A DNA stretch of 64,000 nt from Rhizobacter sp. Root1221 (GTDB lineage: Bacteria > Pseudomonadota > Gammaproteobacteria > Burkholderiales > Burkholderiaceae_C), in contig NZ_LMDI01000018.1 of the NCBI RefSeq assembly GCF_001425785.1, positions 1-64,000 on the forward strand, given 5' to 3'. Of the stretch, positions 795-3,041 are shown one piece after another. Both the position numbers and the translations under genes were made by a program. The number at the start of each line of letters is the position of its first letter. The stretch's first letter is position 1. The notes below the pieces were generated by a model that had not been told where the DNA came from, searched no databases, and worked only from the letters and a program-made list of their open reading frames with translations.

Positions 795-870
795 GCCTCG
801 TTAACTCAGTGGCCAGAGTGCCGACCTGTCTAGTCGGAAGCCGCGGGTTCGACTCCCGCACGAGGCGCCA
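795..870 (+). tRNA. Divergent tRNA-Asp(GTC)-like gene
   Basis: A full cloverleaf can be drawn. The acceptor is GCCTCGT with ACGAGGC (795-801, 860-866). The D stem is ACTC/GAGT, the anticodon stem CCGAC/GTCGG with loop CTGTCTA (826-832), and the T arm GCGGG/CCCGC with TTCGACT. Discriminator G867 and encoded CCA (868-870) follow. The anticodon GTC reads GAC (Asp), and G73 fits Asp identity. The base after the anticodon is U, whereas position 37 is almost always a purine, and the acceptor stem is unlike housekeeping tRNA-Asp of related bacteria as I remember it. It lies 12 nt before a second tRNA and just upstream of HNH and rtcB, so it may be a specialised tRNA-like RNA. Confidence 0.8.
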
Positions 871-882
871 GCATTTGATTCT

Positions 883-961
883 GTCCCGTTAGCTCAGTTG
901 GATCCAGAGCGCCGGTCTACGAAACCGGAGGTCGCACGTTCGAGTCGTGCACGGGGCGCCA
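883..961 (+). tRNA. Divergent tRNA-Arg(ACG)-like gene
   Basis: The cloverleaf has acceptor GTCCCGT/ACGGGGC (883-889, 951-957, one G-U pair) and D stem GCTC/GAGC with a long 11-nt loop. The anticodon stem is CCGGT/ACCGG with loop CTACGAA (917-923) and the T arm GCACG/CGTGC with TTCGAGT. Discriminator G958 and encoded CCA (959-961) follow. The anticodon ACG would read CGT (Arg). Housekeeping tRNA-Arg(ACG) typically has a GC-only acceptor and A73, so this copy is divergent. The CCA ends 41 nt before the HNH start codon, which suggests one transcript carrying both tRNAs and the protein genes. Confidence 0.8.
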
Positions 962-1002
962 TGTTCACCGCGTTACCTGATCGCCCGCGAAAGGAGGGCC
1001 CC

Positions 1003-1578
1003 GTGTTATCCGACACCCACCAGCACGTGCTGCAACTCGACCTGCTCGGCACGCCACAGGCATGGATTTCCGTCGAACAGGCCGCGGTGCACCACGCGAG
1101 CGGCACTGTCGTGTGGGTGGACGGCGACGGCCCGCTGCGCACGCTGCGTGGCGGCTGGAACGCGGTCACCGGCCGGCAGTCGGCGATCGAGGTGTTCCCC
1201 ATCATCGCGGTGGGCGGCCACTCGCGCATCAACCTGTTCGACGTGGCGCCCGCCGTGACCCGCCGCAAGCTGTTCCAGCGCGACCGGCACACGTGTGCCT
1301 ATTGCAGCCAGCGGTTTGCCGACCGCGACCTGCAGTGCGAACACATCGTGCCGGCCAGCCGCGGCGGGCCGTGGTCGTGGATGAACCTGGTGGCCGCATG
1401 TGGCGCATGCAACGGCCGCAAGGCCGCGCGCACGCCGGCGGAGGCGGGCATGCCGCTCGTGTACCTGCCGTACGTGCCCAGCCGGTTCGAGGACTTCCTG
1501 CTGGCCGGCCGTTCGATCCGCGCGGACGTGCACGACTGGCTGGCGGTGCGCCTGCCAAAAGGATCGCGGTTGAACTGA
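1003..1578 (+). CDS. HNH endonuclease
   Basis: The protein is 191 residues with an HNH_5-like nuclease domain in its C-terminal half. Zinc-type cysteines are C98-x2-C101 and C133-x2-C136. The catalytic block reads CEHIVPASRGG (E113-H114), followed by the conserved MNLVAACGACN. The N-terminal half (about 1-85) is not a domain I recognise. GTG at 1003 is chosen because AAAGGAGGG sits just upstream; an in-frame ATG at 961 would overlap the tRNA CCA end. Family members cut DNA and sometimes RNA; the target here is unknown. Placement between tRNA genes and rtcB invites the idea that it acts on nucleic acid that RtcB then handles, but this is inference. Confidence 0.85.
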   Translation: MLSDTHQHVLQLDLLGTPQAWISVEQAAVHHASGTVVWVDGDGPLRTLRGGWNAVTGRQSAIEVFPIIAVGGHSRINLFDVAPAVTRRKLFQRDRHTCAYCSQRFADRDLQCEHIVPASRGGPWSWMNLVAACGACNGRKAARTPAEAGMPLVYLPYVPSRFEDFLLAGRSIRADVHDWLAVRLPKGSRLN

Positions 1579-1620
1579 ACTTGCCGGCGACGGCAGACGT
1601 CGAAATGAGGAGAAGAGGGC

Positions 1621-1809
1621 ATGAACCCCATCCAGCGGGTCACCGTGAAAAAGAACGAACGCGCACTGCTGCTGCGCAACGGCGAGTTCGACCGTGTGCT
1701 CGAACCGGGCCATCACTGGCTGTTCGCGCCGGTCGACCACCTCCGCGTCGAGGTGATCCCGCTCGAGCGCCTGGACCAGGCGCTCGCCGGGCGCCTGCCG
1801 CAGCGCTGA
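1621..1809 (+). CDS. Short slipin (SPFH/Band-7) N-terminal protein
   Basis: This 62-residue protein starts MNPIQRVTVKKNERALLL and resembles only the N-terminal entry segment of slipin-family proteins (VKKNERALL, then an EPGHHWLF block). Slipins are usually 250-380 residues, so the Band-7 core and C-terminus are absent. The frame is intact, has its own Shine-Dalgarno (GAGGAGAAG before the ATG), and ends 14 nt before rtcB, so it looks like a clean deletion, not a frameshift. It may be a functional microprotein or a relic kept for operon spacing. It lacks an obvious membrane helix. The slipin assignment rests on the N-terminal motif only. Confidence 0.6.
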   Translation: MNPIQRVTVKKNERALLLRNGEFDRVLEPGHHWLFAPVDHLRVEVIPLERLDQALAGRLPQR

Positions 1810-1823
1810 CAAGGAGAAACGAG

Positions 1824-3041
1824 ATGGAGCAGAACTGGATCGAAGAGACCACCCCCGGCGGCGTGCCGGTGAAGATGTGGACGCGGGGCGTGCCCGTCGA
1901 GGACGAGGCCCGGCGCCAACTGACCAATGCCGCGCGCCTGCCGGTGGTGTTCCACCACATCGCGGCGATGCCCGACGTGCATTTCGGCATCGGCGCCACC
2001 GTCGGGTCGGTGATCCCGACCGTGAGGGCGATCATCCCGGCCGCCGTGGGCGTGGACATCGGCTGCGGGATGATGGCGGCGAAGACCACGCTGCGGGCGG
2101 AAGACCTGCCCGACAACCTGGCCCCGCTGCGTTCGGCCATCGAACGCGCCGTGCCACACGGCCGCAAGCCGGGCGCCCGCGACCCCGGGGCGTGGCACAA
2201 GGTGCCGGGGTCGGTGAACTCGGCCTGGGCACAACTCGAACCCGAGTTCACCGAGCTGTGCCGCGACTACCCGAAGCTTGCGAAGACCAACCACCTGCAA
2301 CACCTGGGCACGCTCGGGGGCGGCAACCACTTCGTCGAAGTGTGCCTCGACGAGGCGGGGTTCGTGTGGTTCATGCTGCACTCGGGTTCGCGTGGCGTGG
2401 GCAACTTCATCGGCTCGATGTTCATCGAACTCGCGAAGCAGGATGCGATGCGCAACAACGTGCACCTGCCCGACCGCGACCTCGCGTACTTCGAGGAGGG
2501 CGCGCGCTACTTCGGTGACTACGTGCGGGCGGTGGGCTGGGCGCAGAAGTTCGCGGCGCTGAACCGCGAGGTGATGATGAAACGCGTGATCGAGGCCGCG
2601 AAGACCGTGATCCGCAAGAACTTCCAGAGCCACGTCGAGGCGGTGAACTGCCACCACAACTACGTGCAGAAGGAACGCCACTTCGGCGAAGACGTGTACG
2701 TCACGCGCAAAGGTGCGGTGAGTGCCAAGGCCGGGCAACTCGGCATCATCCCGGGCAGCATGGGCGCGCGCAGCTACATCGTGCGCGGCAAGGGCAACCC
2801 GGAAAGCTTCGACAGCTGCTCGCATGGCGCCGGCCGGACGATGAGCCGTGGCGAGGCCAAGCGCCGCTTCACGCTGGCCGACCACCGCGCCGCCACCGAG
2901 GGCGTGGAGTGCCGCAAGGACAAGGACGTCATCGACGAAACACCCGCGGCCTACAAGGACATCGACGCCGTCATGGCCGCGCAGAACGACCTCGTGGACG
3001 TGGTGCACACGCTCAAGCAGGTGGTGTGCGTGAAGGGCTGA
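1824..3041 (+). CDS. rtcB: RNA-splicing ligase RtcB
   Basis: RtcB joins RNA ends with 2',3'-cyclic phosphate (or 3'-phosphate) and 5'-OH using GTP and Mn(II), repairing cleaved tRNAs. The 405-residue protein matches the usual length. Metal and catalytic motifs are present: DVHFG (51-55), GVDIGCGM with C81, GGGNHF with H169, HSGSRGVG with H186, RKGAVSA near 295-301, and SHGAGR with H334, the equivalent of the guanylylated histidine of E. coli RtcB. The ATG follows AAGGAGAAACGAG. No archease, RtcA or RtcR gene is nearby. Instead it closes a plus-strand run tRNA-tRNA-HNH-short slipin-rtcB, which suggests repair of the linked tRNA-like RNAs or of tRNAs damaged by a nuclease. Confidence 0.97.
   Translation: MEQNWIEETTPGGVPVKMWTRGVPVEDEARRQLTNAARLPVVFHHIAAMPDVHFGIGATVGSVIPTVRAIIPAAVGVDIGCGMMAAKTTLRAEDLPDNLAPLRSAIERAVPHGRKPGARDPGAWHKVPGSVNSAWAQLEPEFTELCRDYPKLAKTNHLQHLGTLGGGNHFVEVCLDEAGFVWFMLHSGSRGVGNFIGSMFIELAKQDAMRNNVHLPDRDLAYFEEGARYFGDYVRAVGWAQKFAALNREVMMKRVIEAAKTVIRKNFQSHVEAVNCHHNYVQKERHFGEDVYVTRKGAVSAKAGQLGIIPGSMGARSYIVRGKGNPESFDSCSHGAGRTMSRGEAKRRFTLADHRAATEGVECRKDKDVIDETPAAYKDIDAVMAAQNDLVDVVHTLKQVVCVKG

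Follow-up and report, generated by a model that had tools for sequence, protein, structure and literature searches.

A reduced Burkholderiales module of tRNA array, HNH nuclease, slipin and RtcB, with its control region, in Rhizobacter sp. Root1221

The window analysed here covers 64 kb of Rhizobacter sp. Root1221 from the beginning of contig C18 (sequence upstream of base 1 is not visible) and carries near its start a reduced member of a Burkholderiales module in which a transfer RNA (tRNA) array is joined to genes for an HNH nuclease, a slipin and the RNA ligase RtcB. This locus is probably a tRNA-array and RNA-repair module that restarts translation after tRNA cleavage; its regulation and the escape of its tRNAs from nucleases are what we infer from the features set out below. 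A preliminary description, made from the letters alone, had proposed a one-strand set of two tRNAs, an HNH nuclease, a slipin remnant and RtcB, separated by 12, 41, 42 and 14 bp; ARAGORN, Rfam and Pfam bear out both the set, which runs head to tail on the + strand as tRNA-Asp(GTC), tRNA-Arg(ACG), HNH, slipin piece and RtcB, and the gaps (Table 1). The gene map shows no further gene in this cassette. Both tRNAs score well above the Rfam tRNA cut-off of 29 bits. The best start of the HNH gene, whose frame can be read from 961, is the GTG at 1003, preceded by AAGGAGG at 991-997. The Band_7 match of the slipin piece is under the Pfam cut-off, the piece aligns to full-length slipin over its residues 4-50 only, and no full slipin copy was found elsewhere in the Root1221 genome. 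Aligned to solved RtcBs, the window RtcB retains the conserved Cys/His stretches, which we take to have active-site roles.

Table 1. Features of the cassette and of its control region (positions in the window).
Feature	Position	Strand	Evidence
Promoter TTGACG; operator overlapping it, an inverted repeat GTAAA-N5-TTTAC at 358-372 (356-374 with extended arms) that reaches into the -10 region	347-375	+	promoter scan
Putative leader peptide open reading frame, GTG start, 41 residues, ends PGEGSA-stop	427-552	+	Shine-Dalgarno-like AAGGA; conserved end motif
Element A: end of leader reading frame, hairpin over stop codon, intrinsic terminator (stem ~582-608, T-run 609-613)	520-613	+	alignment A4, model R2
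Element B: structured RNA of ~140 nt closed by CCACTTCGG...CCGAAGTGG	640-781	+	model R1, covariation
tRNA-Asp(GTC), array-type, anticodon loop CTGTCTA (housekeeping CTGTCAC)	795-870	+	ARAGORN; Rfam tRNA 63.7 bits
tRNA-Arg(ACG), array-type, anticodon loop unchanged	883-961	+	ARAGORN; Rfam tRNA 58.5 bits
HNH nuclease, array-type, 191 residues	1003-1578	+	Pfam HNH_5 1.8e-14, HNH; alignment A2
Truncated slipin, 62 residues: ~50 first residues of a family of ~379 residues, and a divergent tail	1621-1809	+	Band_7 3.3e-4
RtcB RNA ligase, intact	1824-3041	+	PF01139 1.4e-127

The order tRNA-HNH(-slipin)-RtcB is retained in relatives and is not unique to the window strain. A collection scanned with the HNH protein yielded 252 relatives, and the best 80 loci were kept and all examined. 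Same-strand tRNAs lie at most 500 bp upstream of HNH at 69 of these 80 loci (72 if either side is counted), in arrays of 1-29 tRNAs with a median tRNA-HNH gap of 59 bp. Downstream of HNH we found RtcB (scored at 70% identity or more and within 8 kb) at 31, a full slipin at 18 and Ro60/rsr at seven of the 80 loci; these counts are lower bounds, and 10 loci hold less than 3 kb of downstream sequence. Full-length slipin (~379 residues) occurs in L036, L037, L042 and L047. The array and HNH adjoin an rtcR-rsr-rtcB operon in L033 and L035 and rsr-rtcB in L039, and in L037 array, HNH, rtcR, slipin, rsr and RtcB stand in a row. Slipin, RtcB and tRNAs are found together, without an HNH match, in L229 and L230, which belong to another family. 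The RtcBs beside arrays without rsr are mostly 84-91% identical to that of the window, and those of rsr operons mostly 75-77%; the exceptions are L069 (rsr, 89%), L067, L068 and L129 (no rsr seen, 74-75%) and L074 (34%). In a survey of 150 genomes of the family, the window HNH found matches in 140, in two forms. The cassette-type form (60% identity or more to the window HNH) occurs in 17 genomes, including Root1221, with tRNAs within 1.5 kb at 15 of the 17 loci, and the 51-57% identical paralogue has tRNAs at none of the 13 loci examined. Most of the 150 genomes have such a paralogue, of about 50% identity (57% at most), among their listed matches, the copy of Root1221 itself lying on contig C2 (L051, 8369-8926), and because it is so widely conserved it suggests an unstudied housekeeping role.

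Upstream of the tRNAs is a control region that recurs with the module. Its promoter is the only sigma-70-like match on either strand of the first 6 kb. Of 79 upstream regions, 70 contain TTGAC together with GTAAA-N5-TTTAC, against 0.015 expected from shuffled sequence. Across 100 family genomes, the full promoter-operator pattern gave 18 sites in 14 genomes and the reversed-pattern control none, and 17 of the 18 sites are directly upstream of one of two RNA elements, A and B. At the level of the phylum 398 genomes gave matches to the pattern in 18, of which three belong to the same family; the other 15, in which the spacer letters differ, were treated as unrelated, and at this level reversed-control matches turn up in other genomes. 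A fourth copy of the promoter-operator in Root1221 (L249, 765-790, on contig C29) is accompanied by neither A nor B; by eye, an apparently frameshifted gene for a small SEC-C-type zinc protein lies downstream of it.

The promoter is followed by the putative leader peptide, whose end, P-G-[E/G/K]-G-x-A-stop, is found in 52 of 75 upstream regions. The pattern itself fixes positions 1 and 2 of the Gly/Ala codons, so that the evidence lies in their third positions alone, and these are free (1.7-1.8 bits); moreover, three stop codons are used. The Pro codon is invariably CCG in all 43 distinct sequences, and for this reason CCGGG may be kept as RNA too. An upstream GTG and a Shine-Dalgarno-like stretch are seen in most of the 51 regions in which both promoter and leader end were recognised. 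From the leader stop codon to the last base of the T-run the distance is 59-63 nt in 43 of 48 regions; thus, at the level of sequence, the locus has the hallmark of attenuation, a short open reading frame at a fixed distance from an intrinsic terminator. Element A, which spans the leader end and this terminator, is present at 69 of the 80 loci, although 26 of these 69 belonged to the training set of model R2, and eight of the 11 loci without it hold less than 2 kb of upstream sequence. In its paired positions the covariation score exceeds that of all shuffles; 19 of 500 shuffles reach its count of pairs in which both sides have changed, and its number of pair types was not above the shuffles. 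A strong terminator had been predicted here as an insulator of the cassette; it exists, and was not listed by a simple terminator scan, but it forms part of the conserved leader and cannot be regarded simply as an insulator.

Element B, between the terminator and the first tRNA, has a closing helix of 16 pairs and several arms. Thirteen of its 44 pairs are changed on both sides, versus 6.3 +/- 1.2 in shuffles and 1-7 in slid versions. It is present at 65 of the 80 loci, 22 of which belonged to the training set of model R1, and no Rfam family matches 640-781 at an expectation value (E) of 5 or below. In L198 and L199 it abuts a tRNA-Gly, which suggests that B may be excised as a separate RNA. 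Among the 100 family genomes, B occurs in 18 and element A matches in 19, 16 of the latter at E 6e-6 or better, and all 16 carry B. Weak matches to A in G041, G085 and G099 (E 3e-5 to 3e-4) were set aside, that of G085 and the first of G099 looking like chance; further weak matches are in G066, G030 and G099. RtcB is present in 13 of the 18 genomes with B versus 14 of the 82 without it (Fisher p 1.1e-5). Under strict filters B was found in five of 300 genomes of the order, three of them from one other family. We rejected the possibility that B is a Y RNA: there is no Rfam YrlA match, and 11 of the 18 genomes with B have no match to the Ro60 vWA domain, although Ro60 is commoner with B (7/18 vs 3/82 genomes). 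No Y RNA reaches the Rfam cut-off anywhere in the window. A YrlA match at 821-938 that extends over both window tRNAs stays below threshold (33.4 bits versus a cut-off of 69) and probably arises because Y RNAs resemble tRNAs.

The same elements precede other RNA-repair genes. Root1221 has three copies of element A, that of the window, one at a His-Pro-Ser tRNA array (C29) and one at an rtcA paralogue (C9; L190, 7193-8986), which is preceded by both A and B and is 59% identical to the rtcA of contig C21. In L191, L193 and L194, A and B are followed by an RtcB gene whose product has 88-89% identity to that of the window, with no HNH match in the 5.5 kb mapped. The occurrence of the leader-terminator at arrays, at an rtcA paralogue and, in relatives, at rtcB alone points to a regulon, the regulation itself being what we infer; its cyclase and ligase are split between two loci of the Root1221 genome. 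Common control of the tRNAs, HNH and RtcB would likewise follow from the control element that they share. In 63 of the 69 loci with A, a gene for a regulator of ~124 residues diverges upstream of A (in 60, at 170-380 bp); it has no Pfam match at E of 0.1 or below (three members scanned) and matches a PHROGs 'transcriptional repressor' (both members scanned). The C9 copy of Root1221 has this gene. The preliminary description had noted the lack of rtcA and rtcR, and this holds for the locus, since rtcR, rsr/Ro60 and rtcA were not seen there (gene map of the first 20 kb, by size and neighbourhood), but not for the genome: contig C21 carries an rtcR-rsr-Y RNA-rtcB-rtcA operon, which accounts for the Ro60 match and the second RtcB in our searches of the genome and is without element A, B or the operator. 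A scan for sigma-54 sites found them upstream of rsr in L033, L035 and L050, upstream of slipin-rsr in L037, and none before the window cassette. Sigma-54 control of the arrays was considered and dropped; there is no convincing site before arrays, and a single weak one, in L039.

The preliminary description had also suggested a unit for nucleic-acid damage and repair or for defence. A recurrent tRNA and RNA-repair unit is what we find; for the HNH protein, which has a Cas9-like core, a role on DNA fits best and action on tRNA is less likely. In AlphaFold2 models of the protein (best of five, predicted local distance difference test score 82.5 and predicted template modelling (TM) score 0.57; the models range down to 58), the best solved matches are Cas9 HNH domains and a nicking enzyme of the HNH type, and these matches are confined to the HNH part (TM-scores by query, ~0.3). 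To judge from its predicted fold and its neighbourhood, the protein most likely acts as an endonuclease on DNA, one that promotes the spread or rearrangement of arrays. An alternative is that tRNAs and HNH form a selfish or phage-derived homing cassette, with RtcB, slipin and rsr as bystanders at an insertion hot spot. Relatives of the HNH protein are found at 32 loci of viral contigs, 20 of which bear tRNAs (up to 40), 12 with a same-strand tRNA within 500 bp, and also beside tRNA arrays of a Tolypothrix plasmid and of Arthrobacter phage Mimi; HNH is, moreover, the most widespread gene of mycobacterial tRNA arrays (PMC5966550), and one array of the collection is on a conjugative megaplasmid. 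Element A was found in none of 16 such sources (14 of the 32 viral contigs, the plasmid and the phage). We consider this alternative rather unlikely, because bystanders would not share one control region, and here arrays, a solitary rtcB and an rtcA paralogue all have the same operator, leader-terminator and RNA B in front of them. The linkage of slipin, RtcB and array also persists where there is no HNH match, and the tRNA discriminators are still under constraint.

The latter point is best seen in the tRNAs themselves. The two tRNAs of the window had been called divergent, and they are, with identities of 0.66 (Asp) and 0.60 (Arg ACG) to the housekeeping copies of the same genome over the regions compared; they are not the sole Asp or Arg(ACG) isoacceptors, as separate housekeeping Asp and Arg(ACG) tRNAs are present. 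For the wider comparison, 531 array tRNAs from 74 of 81 loci were collected, 527 of which could be parsed, and the reference was the tRNAs of the Root1221 genome, a 'housekeeping' set of 44 that includes three tRNAs of its second array (C29). The genome tallies are 47 by Rfam and, by ARAGORN, 44 in the extracted pieces plus two in the window; tRNA-Lys is not among the 44 that ARAGORN found in these pieces. Array tRNAs have a median identity of 0.66 to the same-anticodon tRNA of Root1221 (extremes 0.36 and 0.94; 495 of 527 with a partner, regions compared), and about 55% of their acceptor-stem positions agree. Nevertheless, of the pairs counted in the acceptor, anticodon and T stems, 97.2% are intact, versus 98.1% in the reference, and the full CCA is encoded in 476 of the 527. 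Discriminators are specific to the amino acid: His C (59/59), Pro(tgg) A (30/30), Leu(cag) A (23/23), Gln(ttg) G and Asn G (20/20 each), Ile A (18/18), Gly(gcc) T (15/15), Trp G (13/13), Asp G (36/37), Cys T (18/19) and Phe A (17/18). Those of Arg and Glu vary, and Ser(tga) has G in the arrays (3/3) versus A in the reference.

Some of the anticodon loops have changed in directed ways. In the 37 array tRNA-Asp the loop CTGTCAC has become CTGTCTA (25) or CTGTCCA (8), giving a pyrimidine at 37 and A38 in 34 of the 37; the Asp anticodon arm of the housekeeping copies is, as a control, unchanged in 91 of 100 genomes. In all 23 Leu(cag) tRNAs the loop TTCAGGT has become CTCAGAA, with G37 replaced by A; C38 is lost in 29 of 29 Glu(ttc), and C33 is present in 14 of 15 Gly(gcc). 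A pyrimidine at position 37 is found in 37 of the 527 array tRNAs versus none of the 44 reference tRNAs, all of which have T33 and a purine at 37. These changes may evade recognition by some anticodon nucleases while the tRNAs are still charged and decode, as has been proposed for changed anticodon loops of phage tRNAs (PMC10264068). The array tRNAs thus fit working spares that would escape some anticodon nucleases. Three roles had been put forward for them, as decoys, spare tRNAs or dedicated substrates; spares are the best of the three, and the other two are not supported because the array tRNAs keep their discriminators and mostly their encoded CCA. A related alternative is that the array merely supplies more tRNA to genes that are highly expressed or were acquired horizontally. 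Full sets do exist, such as the 23 tRNAs for 20 amino acids of L076, but the window anticodons duplicate housekeeping ones, and the link with RNA repair and the directed loop changes also speak against it; we regard this explanation as very unlikely.

The proposed working of the locus, as a module that restarts translation after tRNA cleavage, would be as follows. A phage-type repressor, encoded by the divergent gene in relatives, would silence the promoter, and translation of the leader would set whether transcription halts at the terminator. Stalling of ribosomes, for example when anticodon nucleases cut the normal tRNAs, would allow read-through of the terminator, and hence production of spare tRNAs that are poorly cut by some nucleases, together with RtcB, which would rejoin cut tRNAs. 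The HNH protein, acting on DNA, would help arrays to spread or rearrange. Possibly, the elements belong to a wider, undescribed regulon of Burkholderiales, in which a phage-type repressor and a leader attenuator sense failing translation and release nuclease-tolerant tRNAs, RtcB/RtcA and a new structured RNA (B) that would itself act in tRNA repair; we put this forward tentatively. If true, the bacteria would have taken over, from anti-defence arrays of phages, a programme by which translation as a whole recovers.

Several observations weigh against this interpretation. RtcB, as scored here, was not seen at 49 of the 80 HNH loci; 19 of these 49 are among the 29 Variovorax loci and consist of Arg(ACG)-His-HNH only. 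The counts across loci and genomes ignore phylogeny. The regulator gene was found neither in the window, whose first base is also the contig end, nor at the Rhizobacter loci L058, L061 and L098, and the window copy is worn, with two tRNAs and a truncated slipin. Over the whole leader, the ratio of non-synonymous to synonymous polymorphism (pN/pS) is 0.70 in frame versus 0.76 and 1.04 in the other frames, suggesting that constraint at the protein level is weak outside the leader ends. In computed folds the terminator is the stable end state (median probability P about 1), and the alternative pairing arises as an elongation intermediate only (median P 0.59; window, 0.14). The T-loop begins with TTC in 88% of array tRNAs versus 100% of the reference, and some array copies may therefore be worn. 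Finally, the anticodon loop is unchanged in Asn (20/20), Trp (13/13) and Arg(ACG) (45/50), so that escape from nucleases cannot be general.

Two further explanations were considered. In the first, the locus serves defence: tRNA would be cleaved by the HNH protein, and the host would recover by means of RtcB and the spare tRNAs. The HNH protein does have weak, domain-level similarity to PtuB of Septu and retron systems (best 4.7e-9, 61 residues), and expression of PtuAB leads to loss of tRNA-Tyr (PMC11555353). The similarity, however, covers the HNH core only, Cas9 HNH domains rank first in the fold search, the cassette contains neither a PtuA ATPase gene nor a full-length match to PtuB, and the 51-57% identical paralogue is listed in most family genomes, without tRNAs at the 13 loci examined; we regard this explanation, too, as very unlikely. 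Also very unlikely is a decaying relic without function in Root1221. Only two tRNAs are left, the slipin is cut short and the divergent regulator was not found, but the cassette still has intact RtcB and HNH frames and two intact cloverleafs, and its promoter-operator, leader, terminator and RNA B show no damage.

The repair module proposed here has partial counterparts. In Anabaena sp. PCC 7120, a tRNA operon (the L-array, or trn operon), rtcB, slipin and HNH genes are co-repressed, and they are induced by translation inhibitors (PMC10272220, PMC9938897). That system shares with ours a spare tRNA operon with an adjacent HNH gene; rtcB and slipin answer the same repressor, TrcR, at sites that overlap or lie near the -10 box, and the regulon is induced by translation stress. 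The Anabaena genes, however, are apart (the array on a plasmid, rtcB on the chromosome), whereas here they form one locus, and the Anabaena repressor is the ribbon-helix-helix protein TrcR, with an 8-bp site (TGTAGTAT at the tRNA operon), whereas here we find the operator GTAAA-N5-TTTAC, a repressor-like gene of PHROGs type, a leader-terminator and RNA B; no search for a TrcR homologue was made. The array units of Mycobacterium, phages and plasmids have clustered, redundant tRNAs that are diverged from the chromosomal copies, often with HNH (PMC5966550, PMC12803027), and 'RtcB' and 'ligase' are missing from the main texts on the Mycobacterium arrays. The window has redundant, diverged tRNAs with HNH beside them, and two tRNAs rather than the many dense ones of such units (relatives have up to 29). 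The rsr-yrlBA-rtcBA operon likewise joins RtcB to a tRNA-like RNA and to tRNA damage, but unlike the window cassette it is under RtcR and sigma-54, and in Salmonella RtcR is activated by cut tRNAs with cyclic phosphate ends (PMC7790460). Phages evade tRNA-cutting defences with extra tRNAs (PMC10264068, PMC11555353) and loop changes (PMC10264068); unlike these, the tRNAs described here are in bacterial genomes and are coupled to repair and to a control region. Thus, tRNA arrays with HNH are already known from these accounts, as are arrays controlled jointly with rtcB and slipin; our searches of the open-licence literature turned up no description of the joined locus, its leader-terminator, its operator or RNA B. 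Arrays are here tied to RNA ligation by position and by a shared control region, which offers a concrete, testable answer to why bacteria retain large extra tRNA arrays, namely to replace and repair cut tRNAs, as well as a candidate sensor (leader peptide and terminator), a candidate new family of structured RNA and a small regulon accessible in common environmental laboratory strains.

Some minor observations concern the arrays and the HNH relatives. The array of 27 tRNAs on the conjugative megaplasmid of Methylibium petroleiphilum PM1 (L132, 3215-8561) has AlkB-like and HD-domain genes among its tRNAs, and a PcfJ-like gene lies inside the tRNA array of L036 (8575-9723). In the viral contigs L275, L276, L278, L288 and L295 the HNH relative is a few kb from a distant Ro60-like match (24-26% identity). 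At the contig end, a tandem repeat of ~48 bp, recognised by eye, occupies positions 1-95 of the window and is perhaps the cause of the break in the assembly.

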